From: Chromatiales bacterium
GTDB taxonomy: Bacteria > Pseudomonadota > Gammaproteobacteria > Thiohalomonadales > Thiohalomonadaceae
DNA: 41,194 nt
Direction: 5' to 3'
Assembly: GCA_003251535.1 (NCBI GenBank)
Contig: QKFD01000046.1
Span: 1 to 41,194 of the forward strand
The notes under the pieces are model-generated. The model saw only the letters and a list, made by a program, of their open reading frames with translations. It did not search any database and was not told the DNA's origin. Of the stretch, positions 35,535-41,194 are shown piece by piece. The translations under genes and the position numbers were made by a program. Each line of letters opens with the position of its first letter. The first letter of the stretch is position 1.

Positions 35535-36119
35535 GTGACGAGTGGGCGACGCAGGGGGTTGAAGGCGATGCTGTTGGTCGCCGGCCTCTGCTGCGCCCCC
35601 TGCACCTGGGCGGAGCCACAAGAGTGGGAGCCGCCCGATCCCGAGCTGAAGTCCCGGCTCATCACCGCCCTGACCGACATCGGCAGCTTCCAGGACCGCT
35701 TCGACGCCGAGGTGTGGCTGGTGGATATGTCGGAGCGGTTGGCGAAGAAGATCCCCGATCCCCAACAGCGACTGGAGCTGCTCCGCTCGGTCCACTTTGA
35801 GGCCTCCCGGGTGGGGCTCGATCCGCAGCTGGTATTGGCGGTGATCCAGGTGGAGAGCAACTTCAACCATCGCGCCGTCTCCCACGCCGGCGCCCGCGGC
35901 CTGATGCAGATTATGCCGTTCTGGCTCGATGAGCTGAGCCGGCCAGAGGACGACCTGTTCCACATCCCCACCAACCTCCGCTTCGGCTGTACCATCCTGC
36001 GCTACTACCTCGACGTCGAGCAGAATAACCTCTCCCGCGCCCTGGCCCGTTACAACGGCAGCCTCGGTAGCTACGTCTACCCCGATCTAGTCTTCCGCGC
36101 CCTTAAGCAGTGGCGCTAA
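35535..36119 (+). CDS. Lytic transglycosylase (SLT domain)
   Basis: A 194-residue exported murein hydrolase. The signal sequence runs about residues 5-27 (MLLVAGLCCAPCTWA) and includes Cys residues but no clean lipobox. The catalytic SLT fold has the acid/base Glu in VIQVESNFNHRAVSHAGARGLMQIMPFWLDEL, then ALARYNGS. It cleaves peptidoglycan with formation of 1,6-anhydro-muramyl ends. The start is GTG at 35535, 11 bases after the proS stop and preceded by GAGGGG, so it may be co-transcribed with proS. Confidence 0.9.
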   Translation: MTSGRRRGLKAMLLVAGLCCAPCTWAEPQEWEPPDPELKSRLITALTDIGSFQDRFDAEVWLVDMSERLAKKIPDPQQRLELLRSVHFEASRVGLDPQLVLAVIQVESNFNHRAVSHAGARGLMQIMPFWLDELSRPEDDLFHIPTNLRFGCTILRYYLDVEQNNLSRALARYNGSLGSYVYPDLVFRALKQWR

Positions 36120-36788
36120 CGGGGATACCCCCAAGCACCGGTCACCCCTGCGCTGCCAACCTGCACGACGGCAGCCCCTCCTCAACGGGGGGCGCGGGCT
36201 GCCCTGTGCCCGCTAGCGTGGGGCCACGGGGGTGAGGCCCAGCCGGTGACCGGAAGGCATGGCGGGGACCCGGGCCGCAAAAATGAGACCCCCTAAAAGA
36301 GGGGAGAGGGGGGACCTTGAATATAAAAATCGGGTCGGGTTCCGGGCGTTGGCGGGCACGCCAGGTTGAGACCATAGCGATAGGCGGAGTGAGTGCGGGG
36401 AGATAATTCAGGGAGGTGAAGTGGGGTTTTTATTTATTTTCTTATTAAACGATGATGACGGGGGCTGTGCTGAGGCCGCCTTCGATTAGAGGCTGAAAAT
36501 ATCAGGGTCAGATGCCATGGTATGGCCATTATCTAGGCGGGCTTATGAGGGAGTTGAAGAGGATAAGGGGGAAGCGGTGAGCGGTGTCGCCGCGGCCAAA
36601 TGAATTTTTTATTTAACCTTGCATTGGGGTTCAATTAAATTATTTTTACCCGTGTTGACATACTTTGTGGCCCTATGCGAGATTGCAGCGCCGAGGGAAC
36701 GCGGCCCCCTTGTCTAGGGCCCCCCTCCGTTTGAACGCGCGGCGCCAGTCATTCAGCGCCCACCCTGATTGGGACATGGAGGTTTGCG
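36120..36788 (+). other. 669-bp structured and AT-rich intergenic region before the candidate RiPP cluster
   Basis: No credible gene is present. The left part is GC-rich and self-complementary: CCGGTCACC (36138-36146) pairs with GGTGACCGG (36245-36253), and inside it GCAGCCC (36171-36177) pairs with GGGCTGC (36196-36202). The centre (36400-36660) is strikingly AT-rich for this genome, with T and A tracts, ending in TTGACA at 36655-36660. That hexamer has no good -10 at standard spacing, so the promoter of the following operon is probably here but not pinpointed. The right part leads into GGAGG ahead of the ATG at 36789. Confidence 0.6.
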
Positions 36789-37814
36789 ATGTACCCATCT
36801 GTGCAACGCCTGCTCCCCGGTTTCTCCACCCTGCTGGCGGGTTGCGGTACCAGTCGAGCGCTGGCCGTCAACGGCACCGAATTCAGCTCCGAGGCGGAGT
36901 TCAAGCGCTGGATGGCCGATGTGCTCGGTAGTGATCAGCAGCGGCGTCTCGCGGGCGAGCACTACCAGCACAACAAGGTGATTGCCGTCTTCCCCGGCCA
37001 TGGGCCTAACCACTTTGCCTTCCGCTTCTACCAGTACGACGCCGCGAGTGGTGCGCTCTATGCCGATCTAGAGTGCGCCAATGTCTCTACGGCAGCGGGG
37101 CTGTTTGCCGTGCTGCAAGGGATCGCCGCCCCCGCCCTCGATGGCTGTCTCACCGCCTCAAACCTCGGTACCGGCCAGCTCCTCGCCCTCTGCCCACAGC
37201 AGCAGGAGCGCTATTGGGACTCGCCCTGGAACGTCTCCTTCCTCTATCCCGAGGGGCTGCGTATCCCCGCCTGGTCCGGGGACGAGCCCCACTGGGTCAC
37301 CACCGCCAGCGGGGTTCGGGTGGCGATCTGGGTGGCCCAACACGGTAACCTCTTCATCCTCGCTGAGGGGGCGCCGGAGTCGCTGAACGATGGCGATCTC
37401 GCTGAACTGAGCCGGATCGGGAGCGAGATCGCCCTGGCGCTGGGTTGCCCTGAATCGCTGGCGGAGAACGCCAAACTGCTGCTGTTTGAACCCCTGGCCA
37501 GCAGCGCGGAGCAGGGGCGGGTACGGACCACCCTCTACTACAAGGGGCAGCGTCACCACTCCATCGCCGGCTCGGCGGCCATGTTCTTGGCAGGCTGCTT
37601 CGCCTCCTCGCTGCCGGAGCCGGAGCGGTTGGCGCTGCTGCAACGCCCCTACTGCGTCACCATCGAGCACCCCTCTGGCACGCTGGCTGTCTCCGTCCAC
37701 GCGATGCTGGATAGCGAGGGCGCCTTTGCCATCCAGGCCACCACCTTTGCCACCCCGGTGCGGCTGTTCCTTGTGGGGCAGGCGGTCACCGCGCCGGTGG
37801 AGGTGGCGGCGTGA
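36789..37814 (+). CDS. PrpF-like isomerase (DapF/PrpF fold), divergent
   Basis: A 341-residue protein. Segments line up with PrpF (2-methylaconitate isomerase): CGTSRAL near residue 19 for GGTSKG, VLGSD, HNKVIAVF with Lys63, ADLECANVSTAAG with Cys96 for the CGN motif, QRHHSIAGSAAMFLAG and IEHPSGTLAVSV near 292. Lys63 and Cys96 correspond to the active-site Lys and Cys of PrpF with nearly the same spacing, so catalysis (proton shift or epimerisation) seems possible. LLAGC near residue 15 mimics a lipobox but coincides with the PrpF motif. It opens a plus-strand set, has GGAGG seven bases upstream, and overlaps the next gene at GTGA. No methylcitrate-cycle genes are near, so a role in peptide modification is inferred, not shown. 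Confidence 0.7.
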   Translation: MYPSVQRLLPGFSTLLAGCGTSRALAVNGTEFSSEAEFKRWMADVLGSDQQRRLAGEHYQHNKVIAVFPGHGPNHFAFRFYQYDAASGALYADLECANVSTAAGLFAVLQGIAAPALDGCLTASNLGTGQLLALCPQQQERYWDSPWNVSFLYPEGLRIPAWSGDEPHWVTTASGVRVAIWVAQHGNLFILAEGAPESLNDGDLAELSRIGSEIALALGCPESLAENAKLLLFEPLASSAEQGRVRTTLYYKGQRHHSIAGSAAMFLAGCFASSLPEPERLALLQRPYCVTIEHPSGTLAVSVHAMLDSEGAFAIQATTFATPVRLFLVGQAVTAPVEVAA

Positions 37815-39013
37815 ATCTATCGGCACTACCGGGTTGGCGGCGCGGTTTTGTCGAGGCCTGCCTGGCGCTGGTGGGGGCGGAGGGGAGCGATTGGTATCAG
37901 GGTTTCTGTAAACGGGTGACGGCGGAGATCGCACCGCAGGCCGCCCATGTGGATGCCAGCGGGAGCTATCCCCGTGATGGGGTGGCGGTGCTGCGCGAGA
38001 GCGGGGTGTTTGGGGCGGCGTTGCCGGTGGCCCAAGGGGGGCTGGGGTTCGGTCCCTCCATCGCCTCGTTGGCGGTGGAGACGGTGGCCGCTGCCTGCCC
38101 CTCCACCGCTGCCGTGCTGATGTTCCATCTCCAGGTGATTCTGCGTTTGGTGCGGTTCGGCTCGCCGCGTCAGCAGGAGGAGACCCTGCCGCGGCTGGTG
38201 AGGGGGGAGTGGATGGGGGCGAGCGCTTGGACCGAGGCCTCCTCTGGCGCCGATAAGTCGCGCCTTACCACCCGCCTGCACCAAGGGCCGCAGGGGTGGC
38301 GGCTGGATGGCGCCAAGACCTACTGCACCGGCCTAGAGGGGGCCCAGGTGGTCCATGCCCTGGTGGCCGTGCCCGACGCCGCCGGCGCCCCTGTCCCCAG
38401 CTTCATCCAGGTGACCACCGACACCCCGGGGGTGGCCATCGAGGAGATCTACCCGCTACTCGGGATGCGCGGTAGCTCCACCGGCACCATCCGCTTTGAC
38501 GATGTGGTGGCGACCCCCGCGGATCTGGTGGGGGAGGTGGGGGGCGGGCGGCGAATGATGGCCAATAGCCACGAGGTGTGCGTCAACCCCGGCCTGTTGG
38601 CGCTGGGGATCGCCGCTGCCTCTTATAGCGAGCTGCTCGCCAGTGTCACTGGCGCCAACGGCAGCATGGTCGATAGCACCGGCTTTCAACACACCCGCCT
38701 CACCCTCGCCGGTCTGGAGATGCAGCTTGGGAGCGCCTATGCCTACGCTGCCCAGGCGGTGCGCTATGCCGCCAGCGATATCACCCAGAAAAACCTGGAG
38801 TGTCTGCGCTCCAAGGTCCAGGCGAGCGAGACCGCCACGGCACTCACCAGTGGTGCCATGCAGCTGGTCGGCTCGCGGGCGTTCCGCAGTGGCCACCCGC
38901 TGGAGCGCCATTTCCGCGATGCCCGGGCCACCTCCCTGATGGGACCCTGCACCGAGGTGGTCAAGGAGCAGGTGGCGGCATCGATTCTCGAACAGGCAAG
39001 GAGAGGAGTGTAG
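37811..39013 (+). CDS. Acyl-CoA dehydrogenase-family flavoprotein
   Basis: A 400-residue protein with ACAD architecture. The helical N domain (about 30-130) contains GVFGAALPVAQGGLG. The beta domain has the FAD-binding GASAWTEASSGADKSRLTT (about 136-154) and LDGAKTYCTG. The C-terminal four-helix domain ends in HPLERHFRDARATSLMGPCTEVV. At the position of the usual catalytic Glu (YEGT motif in medium-chain enzymes) the sequence is Met-Gly-Pro, with Gly378 in its place. Glu255, in SHEVCVNPG, lies close to the alternative base position used by isovaleryl-CoA dehydrogenase. It may therefore be a dehydrogenase with a moved base or a flavin monooxygenase-like relative. GTG at 37811 overlaps the PrpF-like stop; the next ATG is three bases past its own stop. 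Confidence 0.88.
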   Translation: MNLSALPGWRRGFVEACLALVGAEGSDWYQGFCKRVTAEIAPQAAHVDASGSYPRDGVAVLRESGVFGAALPVAQGGLGFGPSIASLAVETVAAACPSTAAVLMFHLQVILRLVRFGSPRQQEETLPRLVRGEWMGASAWTEASSGADKSRLTTRLHQGPQGWRLDGAKTYCTGLEGAQVVHALVAVPDAAGAPVPSFIQVTTDTPGVAIEEIYPLLGMRGSSTGTIRFDDVVATPADLVGEVGGGRRMMANSHEVCVNPGLLALGIAAASYSELLASVTGANGSMVDSTGFQHTRLTLAGLEMQLGSAYAYAAQAVRYAASDITQKNLECLRSKVQASETATALTSGAMQLVGSRAFRSGHPLERHFRDARATSLMGPCTEVVKEQVAASILEQARRGV

Positions 39014-39015
39014 CG

Positions 39016-39915
39016 ATGACAGGTTCGCGGCAGACCGGCCCGGCTACCAAGGCGAAGGAGCTGACTCAACCCTACGGTGTCGGCTATCTCTACCACTACG
39101 ACCCCGGCTATCAGGCGTTCGAGCGCGCCCTGCGGGGGGCGGGTGGCGTGGTGGATATCTATGAAGTACTGGGGGTGCAGTTCAACTCAGAACCGGAGGC
39201 GTTGGAGCGCTTTGCCGCCACCCTGGGCAAGCCCATCACTTTGCACTCCTTCGAGTACTGCCTGGGCAACGTGCAGCGGCCACCGCAGGCGGTGCTGGAG
39301 CGGGTACTGCGGGCCGCCAAGCTCTGCAATGCCGCCTACATCGGTGAGCATATGGCCTTCATGGGGGATAACCGCACCTACGCGGGCGGCTTCATCACCC
39401 CACCGGGTACCGATGAGCAGAACGAGATCTTAGTGCAGCATGTGCAGACGCTGAAGAGCGAATCCCCCTGCCCCATCATCTTGGAGAACCCCTCCAAGCT
39501 CTATCCCCAGATAGGCCCCTACACCATCGGCCAGCAGCTACGCAAAGTGGCCGAGGCCGCCGATGTCGGCATCCTCCTCAGCCTCTCCAACATCAGCATC
39601 AGCGAGCGTTTTGTGCCGCAGGATCGTGAGGAGATCTTGGCGGCCCTGCCACTGGAGCGGGTCAAGCAGCTCCACCTCATCTGCGGTAACGAGGCGGAGG
39701 AGCGGATGCCAGGGATGGAGGGGCAGCGGCAGGAGCAGGCGTGGATGCTGAAGACCATGGAGCAGCTGGCCCGCAATCCTGACTTCAAACCGGTGGCGGT
39801 CATCTACGAACTACAGGCAGGTACCCCCTCGTTGGCCGAACCGGAGCGATTGCGGGATCACATGGAGTTGGCGCGGGAGCTCTTCTTCCGACCGGAGAGG
39901 CGCCAGGCGGCCTAA
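39016..39915 (+). CDS. DUF692/MNIO-family multinuclear iron-dependent oxidase, divergent
   Basis: A 299-residue TIM-barrel protein with the order of DUF692 (MbnB/TglH-like) motifs: GVGYLYHYDPGYQ (21-33), VVDIYEVLGVQFN with Glu50, ITLHSFEYCLGN with His77, YIGEHMAFMG with His112, IILENPSKLY with Glu157/Asn158, ILLSLSNISIS (family usually LLDVNN; Ser189 stands where Asp is expected), QLHLICGN with His220 and VIYELQAGTPSL with Glu265. The family's D-x-H motif after the HLxG strand is replaced by MEGQ. Most metal ligands remain but at least one Asp is lost, so metal stoichiometry may differ. MNIOs oxidise peptide side chains using a partner protein, which is encoded next. ATG 39016 is two bases after the ACAD stop; upstream in-frame sequence is antisense-like filler. 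Confidence 0.78.
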   Translation: MTGSRQTGPATKAKELTQPYGVGYLYHYDPGYQAFERALRGAGGVVDIYEVLGVQFNSEPEALERFAATLGKPITLHSFEYCLGNVQRPPQAVLERVLRAAKLCNAAYIGEHMAFMGDNRTYAGGFITPPGTDEQNEILVQHVQTLKSESPCPIILENPSKLYPQIGPYTIGQQLRKVAEAADVGILLSLSNISISERFVPQDREEILAALPLERVKQLHLICGNEAEERMPGMEGQRQEQAWMLKTMEQLARNPDFKPVAVIYELQAGTPSLAEPERLRDHMELARELFFRPERRQAA

Positions 39916-39945
39916 ACGGGCACCGGCCAACAAGGAGGATCGCAA

Positions 39946-40761
39946 GTGAGTTTAGAGGGAGTTCAGGAGTTCATCACCCGCTACCTGCGCGAACCGGAGT
40001 TCCGCGAGCGCTGTCGGCAGGATATGGCCGCGGCGGCCCGCGAGTGCCGGGTGGAGGAGAGCGAACTGGCGGAGTTGAAGGGGCTTGGCGCCCAGGACTT
40101 CGATAATGCCGCCGAAGAGATGTTCCGCGACCGTATCGGCAAACGCAGCGACGAGTTCCGGCAGTTTGTCGATCACCTGGCGCTCTACTACCCCATAGAG
40201 CAGTTCTACCGCGACTATGATGCCACCCACCCCGGCGGACAGTTGGCGCGGCCGTTGGAGCTGAACCGCTTCCTCGACTTTGGCGTCAAGCAGGTCCTGA
40301 GTCGCCAACTACCGGACTACCTGCTCGATCTGCTCCGCTTCTGCTACGGCTACACCTCCTTGGCCGATGCCCCGCTGGAGTCTTCACCGGCCACGGCCAT
40401 CAAGGTGAGCGCCGACACCGAACTGCGTGCCCACCAACGGGTGGCGCTACGCCGCCCCTACCGCATTGTCGAATTTCGCTACGACATCCTCACCCTCGCC
40501 AGCCACGACCCCGCCCTGGGACCGCCGCAGGTGATCCCCGCGCCCGGCCACTATCTGATGCAGAAGCATTGGGAGCAGGCCAAGACCACCCGCGTCGTGC
40601 CGGTCGATGAGCTACCTCTTCTGGCCCGTCTCCAGGGCGAGACGCCGGTAGCGCTGATTGACCTGGTGGCCTGGGCCCCCAACGCCGAGATCCCTGGCCT
40701 GGTTAGCCACCTCCAGCAGTTGGCGATCAACGGCTATCTGGATCTCTTTGAATCCCCTTAA
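39946..40761 (+). CDS. MNIO partner protein, DUF2063/HvfC-like with C-terminal winged-helix-type domain
   Basis: A 271-residue protein. The N-terminal helical domain (about 1-80; FITRYLREPEFRERCRQDMAAAARECRVEESEL) and a linking helical part (about 80-140) precede a C-terminal domain. That domain runs ADTELRAHQRVALRRPYRIVEFRYDILTLAS, then RVVPVDELPLLARLQGETPVALIDL and VSHLQQLAINGYLDLFE. This follows the pattern of HvfC/BufC-type proteins, whose end resembles a peptide-recognition winged helix (RRE-like). Such partners present the substrate peptide to the MNIO. The match is by eye and moderate. GTG at 39946 has AGGAGG nine bases upstream and the gene is 30 bases after the MNIO. Confidence 0.65.
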   Translation: MSLEGVQEFITRYLREPEFRERCRQDMAAAARECRVEESELAELKGLGAQDFDNAAEEMFRDRIGKRSDEFRQFVDHLALYYPIEQFYRDYDATHPGGQLARPLELNRFLDFGVKQVLSRQLPDYLLDLLRFCYGYTSLADAPLESSPATAIKVSADTELRAHQRVALRRPYRIVEFRYDILTLASHDPALGPPQVIPAPGHYLMQKHWEQAKTTRVVPVDELPLLARLQGETPVALIDLVAWAPNAEIPGLVSHLQQLAINGYLDLFESP

Positions 40762-40770
40762 GCGCCCAGC

Positions 40771-40815
40771 AAGAGGGGTGACCGTGCCGGCCCGTTCCAG
40801 CAGTTCACCCCTCTT
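40771..40815 (+). promoter_or_regulatory. 11-bp hairpin between the MNIO partner and the peptide gene
   Basis: AAGAGGGGTGA at 40771-40781 pairs perfectly with TCACCCCTCTT at 40805-40815 around a 23-base, GC-rich loop. It lies nine bases after the partner stop and 69 bases before the peptide start. No T run follows. It could terminate partially, or mark an RNA-processing site that lets the peptide message accumulate above the enzyme messages, as is common in peptide clusters. Confidence 0.7.
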
Positions 40816-40884
40816 GTGGTGTGGGCAGGTGATGGGGGGCGGGCCGGGAGCAGTGGATGGATCCCAACCTCTTTAAGGAGAGTA

Positions 40885-41194
40885 ATGGCGATGAGTAACT
40901 GGTTTTCTGCGACTAGCTGGGGGCCAGCCCTTCAGGCAATGAAGGCGGCAGCGGGCTGGAGCCCGGCCCTCCAAGCGATGAAGGCGGCGGCGGGCTGGAG
41001 CCCGAATCTTCAGGCGATGAAAGCAGCGGCGGGCTGGAGCCCGAATCTGCAGGCGATGAAAGCGGCGGCGGGCTGGAGCCCGAATCTGCAGGCGATGAAA
41101 GCGGCGGCGGGTTGGAGTCCGAACCTGCAGGCGATGAAGTCGGCGGCGGGTTGGAGCCCGAATCTGCAGGCGATGAAGTCGGCGGCGGGTTGGA
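40885..41194 (+). CDS. Candidate repetitive RiPP precursor peptide (incomplete at the right edge)
   Basis: The gene starts at ATG 40885, with AAGGAG four bases upstream, or more likely at ATG 40891 (ten bases). It is still open at the last base. A short leader (MAMSNWFSATS) is followed by tandem 13-residue units starting at Trp: unit 1 WGPALQAMKAAAG, unit 2 WSPALQAMKAAAG, units 3-5 WSPNLQAMKAAAG, units 6-7 WSPNLQAMKSAAG, with the Trp of unit 8 at the edge. No Cys occurs in the visible part. There is no signal peptide. It is the last visible gene after MNIO and partner, the usual place for a modified peptide. It could instead be a structural repeat protein; the context favours a precursor. Confidence 0.75.
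   Translation, partial: MAMSNWFSATSWGPALQAMKAAAGWSPALQAMKAAAGWSPNLQAMKAAAGWSPNLQAMKAAAGWSPNLQAMKAAAGWSPNLQAMKSAAGWSPNLQAMKSAAGW
40918..41193 (+). repeat. 39-bp tandem coding repeat (at least seven full units)
   Basis: Unit starts (TGG codons) are at 40918, 40957, 40996, 41035, 41074, 41113, 41152 and 41191, exactly 39 bases apart. Substitutions between units are nearly all at third codon positions (CCA/CCG, CTT/CTC/CTG, CAG/CAA, AAG/AAA, GGC/GGT, AGC/AGT, AAT/AAC). Only Ser-to-Gly (unit 1), Asn-to-Ala (units 1 and 2) and Ala-to-Ser (units 6 and 7) change the peptide. This is a protein-level repeat; no spacers separate the units. Confidence 0.95.

Follow-up and report, generated by a model that had tools for sequence, protein, structure and literature searches.

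Which substrate does an enzyme of the MNIO (DUF692) superfamily serve when its gene is followed by those of a partner protein and of a repetitive protein without any Cys? The question is raised by positions 36,789 to 41,194 of a 41,194-nucleotide stretch of a Chromatiales bacterium (GenBank assembly GCA_003251535.1, contig QKFD01000046.1, forward strand), which is called the window here and is the complete contig C33 of the host genome. The locus is read as the 5′ half of a nine-gene biosynthetic operon of the type producing ribosomally synthesized and post-translationally modified peptides (RiPPs), with the repeat protein as a leaderless, Cys-free, multi-copy precursor, and a probability of about 55% is given to this reading. 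Directly supported are the genes, the operon layout, purifying selection on the repeats, the altered metal site, and the family of the partner. That the repeats are the substrate of the MNIO is probable, as judged from the operon structure.

The proposed split operon and its repeat protein

36789..37814, plus strand: PrpF/DapF-fold isomerase-like protein, 341 amino acids (aa)
37811..39013, plus strand: acyl-CoA dehydrogenase (ACAD)-fold flavoprotein, 400 aa, GTG start, without the usual catalytic Glu
39016..39915, plus strand: MNIO (DUF692) superfamily enzyme, 299 aa, altered metal site
39946..40761, plus strand: MNIO partner protein, 271 aa, GTG start, N-terminal stretch resembling an NHLP-clan leader-type domain
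40770..40816, plus strand: inverted repeat with 12-bp arms (40770-40781/40805-40816) between partner gene and repeat gene
40885..41194, plus strand: repeat protein gene, 5′ part, MAMSNWFSATSW and 7 complete 13-residue repeats, truncated by the contig end
40921..41193, plus strand: repeat array, unit [SG]P[NA]LQAMK[ASP]AA[GS]W, ratio of nonsynonymous to synonymous differences (pN/pS) 0.086 for the 21 units of both contigs
Contig C82 (L005 9992-9403), minus strand: repeat gene, 3′ part, 14 further repeats, terminal GWMTAPMAAVAPGWG and stop

The five tightly packed plus-strand genes of the preliminary description were all found in place. The PrpF-like and ACAD-like genes overlap by 4 bases, and gaps of 2 and 30 bases separate the ACAD-like gene from the MNIO gene and the latter from the partner gene. 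The repeat gene starts with an ATG at 40885, with AAGGAG just upstream. Since the window is the whole contig C33, the truncation of this gene is an artefact of the assembly rather than a biological feature. When the host genome was searched with the repeat DNA, all further matches lay at the end of contig C82. Each of the two contigs carries one array, at its contig end, and the motif counts in the host genome, 7 forward and 14 reverse, equal the 7 units of C33 and the 14 units of C82. On C82, the repeat gene and a hairpin are followed by genes for an asparagine-synthetase-like protein, a DUF6282 protein, an ABM-plus-O-methyltransferase protein, and a nitroreductase-like protein, in this order. 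The stop codon of each of the first three enzyme genes overlaps the next start, and the next long open reading frame (ORF) past the nitroreductase-like gene has the opposite orientation. Because of the repeat match at the end of C82, the coupled genes there, and the reversed next ORF, both halves are treated as one nine-gene operon that was split by the assembly within the array. All gene junctions are overlaps of at most 4 bases or gaps of 2 or 30 bases, with the exception of both flanks of the repeat gene. The repeat gene thus follows in the same operon, as had been described, but the operon does not end with it.

In the window, Tandem Repeats Finder reported a period of 39, 6.7 copies, and a score of 391. 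The 21 complete units visible on both contigs are all distinct at the DNA level, and they encode six peptide versions. Their pS was 0.59 and their pN 0.051, giving the ratio of 0.086, and the pairwise differences at codon positions 1, 2, and 3 were 253, 54, and 1,107, respectively. In the other five frames, pN/pS was 3.4, 3.3, 0.93, 11.8, and 0.16, the last value being that of a reverse frame whose third positions presumably coincide with those of the real frame. Because all DNA units differ and yet only six peptide versions exist, with a pN/pS of 0.086, the repeats are old copies held by purifying selection at the peptide level. The lack of any two identical units also rules out a whole-unit overlap between the contig ends.

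The assembly interrupts the array, and two of five weak plasmid matches to the repeat peptide were opened and proved to be tandem-repeat DNA with stops inside or soon after the match, so that a non-coding or spurious tandem repeat, or contig ends coming from different genes, might be considered. This is highly improbable in view of the low pN/pS, the third-position bias, the ribosome-binding site at the start, the terminator-like hairpin after the stop, and the fact that C33 and C82 gave the sole matches in the host genome, with one contig-end array each.

Invariant in the 21 units are Pro, Leu, Gln, Ala6, Met, Lys, Ala10, Ala11, and Trp. The Trp, Pro, Asn, Gln, Met, and Lys that had been assigned to each 13-mer are indeed there, except for Asn, which among the units seen is replaced solely in repeats 1, 2, and the last one, by Ala. 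No Cys occurs in the 298 residues of the repeat protein that were read, as had been noted for its visible part, and the Cys motifs of bufferin and oxazolin precursors are accordingly missing. A leader of the kind bound by a RiPP recognition element was not found in the repeat protein; an NHLP-like stretch resides on the partner instead. As in RiPP loci, a gene under peptide-level selection stands beside genes for modifying enzymes, and a precursor would be its expected role. An AlphaFold2 single-sequence model of the repeats gave one short helix and a turn per unit with low confidence (pLDDT 52).

The hairpin placed before the repeat gene in the preliminary description exists as an inverted repeat, which forms the long hairpin of this gap, but its stability did not exceed that of shuffled sequences (130 nt, z −0.67). 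Directly 3′ of the repeat gene, a 14-bp hairpin rich in G+C and followed by a T-rich tail was found (101 nt, z −4.46), and 0 of 200 shuffles were as stable. A terminator-like hairpin at this site would be a layout giving more precursor than downstream enzyme.

The MNIO, its metal site, and its partner

The MNIO matches Pfam PF05114 with 77.8 bits (cut-off 25, E 1.1e-21), which confirms its membership in the superfamily. With a profile built from this protein and two relatives from Bacillaceae, the MbnB structures were recovered along with 8hi7, a TglHI entry according to PMC12452194. The NCBIfam models BufB and ApyH match well below their cut-offs; ApyH, from the aminopyruvatide pathway, aligns with residues 43-289 at 60.6 bits versus a cut-off of 400 bits. 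That pathway uses a cytochrome P450, and none was seen in the operon of the window.

In TglH, Fe1 and Fe2 are bound by His71, His107, Glu151, Asp184, His216, and Glu258, and Fe3 by Asp184, Asn187, Asp229, and His231 (PMC10880893). The window MNIO keeps His77, His112, Glu157, Asn192, His220, and Glu265. Five of the six Fe1/Fe2 ligands and the position of Asn187 are kept, the bridging Asp184 is Ser189, and the D-x-H of the Fe3 site (Asp229/His231 in TglH) is missing. All 27 ordinary MNIOs in the alignment have both the bridging Asp and the D-x-H; they comprise 25 from genome loci (open stretches of at least 150 codons with phmmer hits below 1e-4, one of them the MNIO of host contig C31), one from a Streptomyces plasmid, and that of host contig C38. 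Both were also found by eye in an Elusimicrobia MNIO. Judged by these residues, the window enzyme is a superfamily member with an altered site and not a canonical MNIO.

The loss of the bridging Asp and of the Fe3 D-x-H may indicate that the MNIO is degenerate, inactive, or a binding subunit, and that modification of the repeats is left to the flavoenzymes or the synthetase. A precedent would be PesX, an MNIO-like protein without metal-binding residues, which showed no activity (PMC13060819). Such an explanation is unlikely, considering the five retained Fe1/Fe2 ligands and the activity of PesH and PflD, which are MNIOs without the Fe3 HxD motif and nevertheless beta-hydroxylate Asp (PMC13060819). 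The substrates of MNIOs and the roles of the individual irons are questions that this natural Asp-less and D-x-H-less MNIO could test.

Homologues of the MNIO/partner pair were found in three Bacillaceae-type loci only, of Halobacillus, Cytobacillus firmus, and genome G817, and the partner homologue follows the MNIO gene in all three. Their MNIOs are 21-24% and their partners 19-25% identical to those of the window. In the three MNIOs, the bridging Asp is Gly, the D-x-H is gone, and the position of Glu258 is Gln. A tree groups them with the window MNIO (95/78), with long branches, so that it is supportive only. These sequence features suggest that the pairs form an MNIO/partner clade whose metal site is reduced. 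The MNIO of the Elusimicrobia locus L054 (minus strand, about 3409-2879) has the GEH[IM]AF motif of the clade together with the ordinary Asp and D-x-H, and it may connect the reduced-site clade with ordinary MNIOs.

Except for this homologous pair, all genes of the Bacillaceae-type loci (L043 = NZ_CP026119 1-27328, L106, and L107) differ from those of the window. They encode WD40, EgtB-like, and RibD proteins, GTP cyclohydrolase II, a pyridoxal phosphate (PLP) enzyme, reductases, and an MFS transporter; GTP cyclohydrolase II is annotated in L043, and the RibD, EgtB-like, and PLP enzymes were profile-checked in L106 only. Directly before the MNIO gene lies a WD40 gene in two of the three loci and a small Cys-containing ORF in the third. 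We take these clusters to resemble those for azapteridine (toxoflavin-type) and pteridine-type small molecules; the literature search brought up no MNIO in an azapteridine-type cluster. With the pairs just 19-25% identical, the different neighbours do not settle the link between MNIO and repeats in the window. All three loci also contain a small conserved unannotated peptide of about 60-75 aa with a VCxxH...CxxC pattern (L043 2360-2548, minus; L106 8671-8904, plus; L107 17291-17467, plus), a candidate for a zinc-binding peptide or an MNIO substrate. From position 36000 of the window, two small ORFs with CxxC were listed on the plus strand, and both overlap the PrpF-like gene out of frame.

The partner had been called HvfC-like, and this label is not supported by its sequence: Pfam found no DUF2063 signature in it, and hhalign gave a probability of 1.8% against an alignment of six DUF2063 partners, all of which pass DUF2063. 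Its residues 4-64 resemble the NHLP-clan leader-type domain NF038399 of NCBIfam (E 6e-8, 32.6 bits, below the cut-off of 40), a match not found in the partners of the three Bacillaceae-type relatives. A structure model was not informative on the fold (pLDDT 35), and no credible match was found among solved structures in the PDB. Of the features of PME-type 2 partners, a helical N-terminal domain and an RRE-like winged helix, the winged helix matched weakly in the partner of one relative (E 0.0026) and not in those of the two others.

Putative tailoring enzymes and their proposed function

The labels PrpF and ACAD are valid at the fold level only, as far as the sequences indicate. The PrpF-like protein stays below the Pfam PrpF cut-off (E 1.9e-4, 20.9 bits versus 27), and its best curated match is the NCBIfam 4-oxalomesaconate tautomerase (E 1.1e-6). 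The curated PrpF and 4-oxalomesaconate tautomerase models scored 18.4 and 27.9 bits versus cut-offs of about 440. In a weak alignment, the Cys of its ECANVS pairs with that of NCGNL in PrpF. The flavoenzyme has the Pfam ACAD N, M, and C domains, all above cut-off. The Glu of the EGT loop is the catalytic residue of acyl-CoA dehydrogenases. In the alignment, IYEGTSEV of a solved ACAD corresponds to LMGPCTEV, so that this Glu is absent; with MGPCT instead of the EGT loop, the ACAD-fold protein need not be a dehydrogenase. On C82, the asparagine-synthetase-like protein (583 aa) starts with MCGIAG, which provides the N-terminal Cys, and belongs to its family by TIGR01536 (276.7 bits, cut-off 267.1). 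The DUF6282 protein has 325 aa, the ABM-plus-O-methyltransferase protein 433 aa, and the fourth protein (258 aa) resembles oxygen-insensitive NADPH nitroreductase at 179.8 bits, below the cut-off of 223.

We infer the following order of steps and product. By analogy with PesH, PflD, and the std cluster, whose MNIO and partner protein together hydroxylate Lys-derived homocitrulline (PMC13174530), the window pair would hydroxylate or otherwise oxidise a non-Cys residue per unit, preferably Asn, or else Lys or Trp. The Asn is favoured because it changes to Ala only, in the first two repeats and the last one, as if these were unmodified caps; as the target, the Asn of SPN is a tentative choice with the odds against it. 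The ACAD-fold flavoprotein and the nitroreductase would oxidise or dehydrogenate further, and the invariant Trp may be their site. The peptide or small fragments would then be released, perhaps by the DUF6282 hydrolase, and the PrpF-fold isomerase, the glutamine-dependent synthetase, and the O-methyltransferase may finish the released peptide or small molecule.

In favour of the RiPP-type operon are the coupled gene order on both contigs, the position of the repeat gene inside the operon with the terminator-like hairpin behind it, the purifying selection on the repeats, and the membership of the MNIO in its superfamily together with a co-inherited partner, as well as the precedents of PesH, PesC, PflD, and the known tandem-repeat MNIO precursors. 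Several points weigh against it. The repeat protein has no evident leader peptide, with just MAMSNWFSATSW upstream of the first repeat, and the operon contains no gene for a protease or transporter. The MNIO has Ser in place of the bridging Asp, and a D184A variant of TglH was insoluble (PMC10880893). The join of C33 and C82 is an inference, and the copy number is at least 21. No 13-mer repeat gene was among the ORFs seen in the three Bacillaceae-type loci. Finally, another genome with this gene order did not turn up among 94 relatives, 397 and 368 other genomes, two scans of genome_contigs, and a search of 397 other genomes for the repeat motif; these genome draws overlap and cover a small part of the known species, the scans need exact short matches, and distant copies may exist.

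According to a further explanation, the enzymes build a small molecule and draw on free or carrier-bound substrates, with the repeat protein as an unmodified scaffold, storage, or structural protein. This is possible, albeit rather unlikely. The nearest MNIO/partner pairs are found with genes for RibD, GTP cyclohydrolase II, EgtB-like, WD40, PLP, and reductase proteins, where the expected products resemble small molecules. The best curated match of the PrpF-like protein and the plasmid neighbourhoods of DUF6282 genes in Thermus and Pelagibacterium point to small carboxylates, and the low-confidence model with a helix-turn pattern (pLDDT 52) would agree with a structural repeat. However, the MNIOs characterised in the surveyed literature act on ribosomal peptides, and a structural role leaves the change from Asn to Ala in the end repeats unexplained, though compatible.

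In the 3-thiaglutamate (TglHI) and pyrroloquinoline quinone (PQQ)-type pathways, a ribosomal scaffold is the feedstock for a small product. In a similar way, every 13-mer may be a substrate unit that is delivered to the metal-depleted MNIO by the partner, with its NHLP-type domain acting in trans, and the excised unit may become a small molecule by means of the isomerase, flavin, amidation, and methylation enzymes. This version is doubtful, and the likeness is an analogy; Tgl has a Cys target and one copy per peptide. If true, one translation event would yield about twenty or more product molecules.

A comparison with known systems indicates which features are new. Tandem-repeat MNIO precursors with Cys and Cys-free MNIO targets are already known. 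The Buf_EGKCG/oxazolin precursors are MNIO-linked tandem 17-residue EGKCG repeats, and their clusters resemble the window in combining such a precursor with a partner-protein gene (PMC12452194). They have two EGKCG motifs per repeat with Cys as the putative target, a DUF2063 partner, and DoxX in most clusters (PMC12452194), whereas the window has no Cys, no DUF2063 signature, and six other enzyme genes. The nitrilobacillin pes cluster (PesH/I and PesC) shares with the window an HxD-less MNIO, a partner, and an asparagine-synthetase-like enzyme, PesC, which amidates and nitrilates the peptide C terminus (PMC13060819). In contrast, the window has neither an alpha-ketoglutarate HExxH enzyme nor a leader, has also lost the bridging Asp, and adds the ACAD fold, the PrpF fold, DUF6282, a methyltransferase, and a nitroreductase. 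The pfl cluster likewise has an MNIO and a nitroreductase and no protease gene; PflD is a fusion of both, and its nitroreductase domain makes dehydro-Phe (PMC12636437). In the window, the MNIO and nitroreductase genes are separate, an HEXXH enzyme is missing, and the precursor is repetitive.

A leaderless Cys-free 13-mer array, a reduced metal site, a non-DUF2063 partner, and ACAD-fold, PrpF-fold, DUF6282, and methyltransferase proteins in one operon were not seen described as a combination. The literature search, by whole words, did not find MNIO together with acyl-CoA dehydrogenase or with PrpF, in agreement with the remark in the preliminary description that this set of enzymes was not recognised. 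A candidate substrate with at least 21 copies of one Cys-free 13-mer makes the locus a direct test case. If the repeats are the substrate, the cluster shows a leaderless multi-copy precursor and brings ACAD-fold and PrpF-fold enzymes into peptide tailoring.

Relatives and surroundings

The MNIO matched at E 0.001 in 49 of the 94 relatives, the best being about 30% identical, and in a draw of 398 genomes of the phylum, four others matched at E 1e-10 with 24-27% identity. In ten MNIO regions that were fetched, one of them from the host, the MNIOs of the ORF lists stand in other contexts. In L033, an ACAD-family ORF (29%) shares a short contig with the MNIO gene, and in L034, an AsnB-family ORF (27%) is located some 5 kb away from the MNIO gene; neither region has the remaining operon genes. 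None of 15 pattern matches in genome_contigs was confirmed as a close MNIO relative. A fixed-gap motif common with the Halobacillus MNIO occurred in 29 genome_contigs loci, and tblastn found relatives in two of them, the Cytobacillus firmus locus L057, which is a true relative, and the Elusimicrobia locus L054. The MNIO of the latter keeps LLDLHN and D-S-H, and no partner homologue was found there by profile.

Partner relatives were found in 0 of 368 other genomes of the class. A tblastn search with the partner over 72,556 plasmids gave one relative, on the Halobacillus litoralis plasmid NZ_CP026119 (22%, E 1e-7), directly after the MNIO gene. The partner profile matched twice in 193 genomes of the Cytobacillus family, in Cytobacillus itself and G817, and in 398 genomes around Cytobacillus only in Cytobacillus itself. 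In the plasmids, the MNIO had no match at E 1e-5 and the PrpF-like protein none at E 1e-3; a loose limit gave 202 weak MNIO records, of which 3 were opened. A Streptomyces plasmid MNIO (25.8%) keeps the Asp and D-x-H, has a CxxC peptide nearby, and was judged a different system. In viral contigs, the motif shared with Halobacillus had 5 loci and the repeat motif 4, none related by tblastn, and the partner profile matched in 0 of 256.

In 398 genomes, the repeat motif was found in the host genome only, and a repeat gene without the MNIO/partner pair was not seen in the genomes and viral contigs searched. The two plasmid matches that were opened were judged chance: the Aeromonas match is interrupted by a stop, and that of Cupriavidus reads through without one but stops shortly afterwards, with no relative of an operon enzyme nearby. 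This plasmid of Cupriavidus necator N-1 (L118 8800-9700) carries long tandem DNA repeats, one frame of which reads PNL-containing 13-mers; they are probably not a gene, though the 13-mer period and PNL equal those of the window.

The best plasmid relative of the DUF6282 protein (41%) is encoded near genes for a catechol dioxygenase and a carboxy-hydroxy-oxoadipate aldolase in Thermus. On this Thermus oshimai plasmid (L120 6001-6921), the DUF6282 gene has PIG-L and aldolase genes next to it in a region for catechol meta-cleavage, which may hint that DUF6282 is a lactonase-type hydrolase. In Pelagibacterium, the second of 2 records opened among 29 plasmid records, it adjoins genes for a TRAP transporter and a fumarylacetoacetate-hydrolase-family protein. 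The tautomerase match and the Thermus context are a hint to small carboxylates.

The host has further MNIO genes at C31:101439-102221 and C23:34623-35408, with 348.9 and 335.9 bits to PF05114. The MNIO of C38 (L089 6518-7360, minus strand) is divergent with ordinary ligands, and its neighbours, named by eye, are MATE-like, TonB-receptor-like, and iron-type ABC transporter ORFs; this may be an uptake locus of the methanobactin-like kind.

The operon genes have a G+C content of 0.63-0.69 and of 0.79-0.86 at third codon positions, the latter being 0.88 for the two upstream genes; a horizontal origin of the operon received no clear signal from these values. In the gap before the operon, no sigma-70 consensus was found. 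An A+T-rich stretch in this gap (36400-36700, G+C content 0.47 versus 0.65 for the window upstream) is likely the promoter region. At the other end of the window, positions 101-214 form a short imperfect tandem repeat with periods of 12, 24, and 36 bases, the 24-base consensus of which would read QGIEQGIE.

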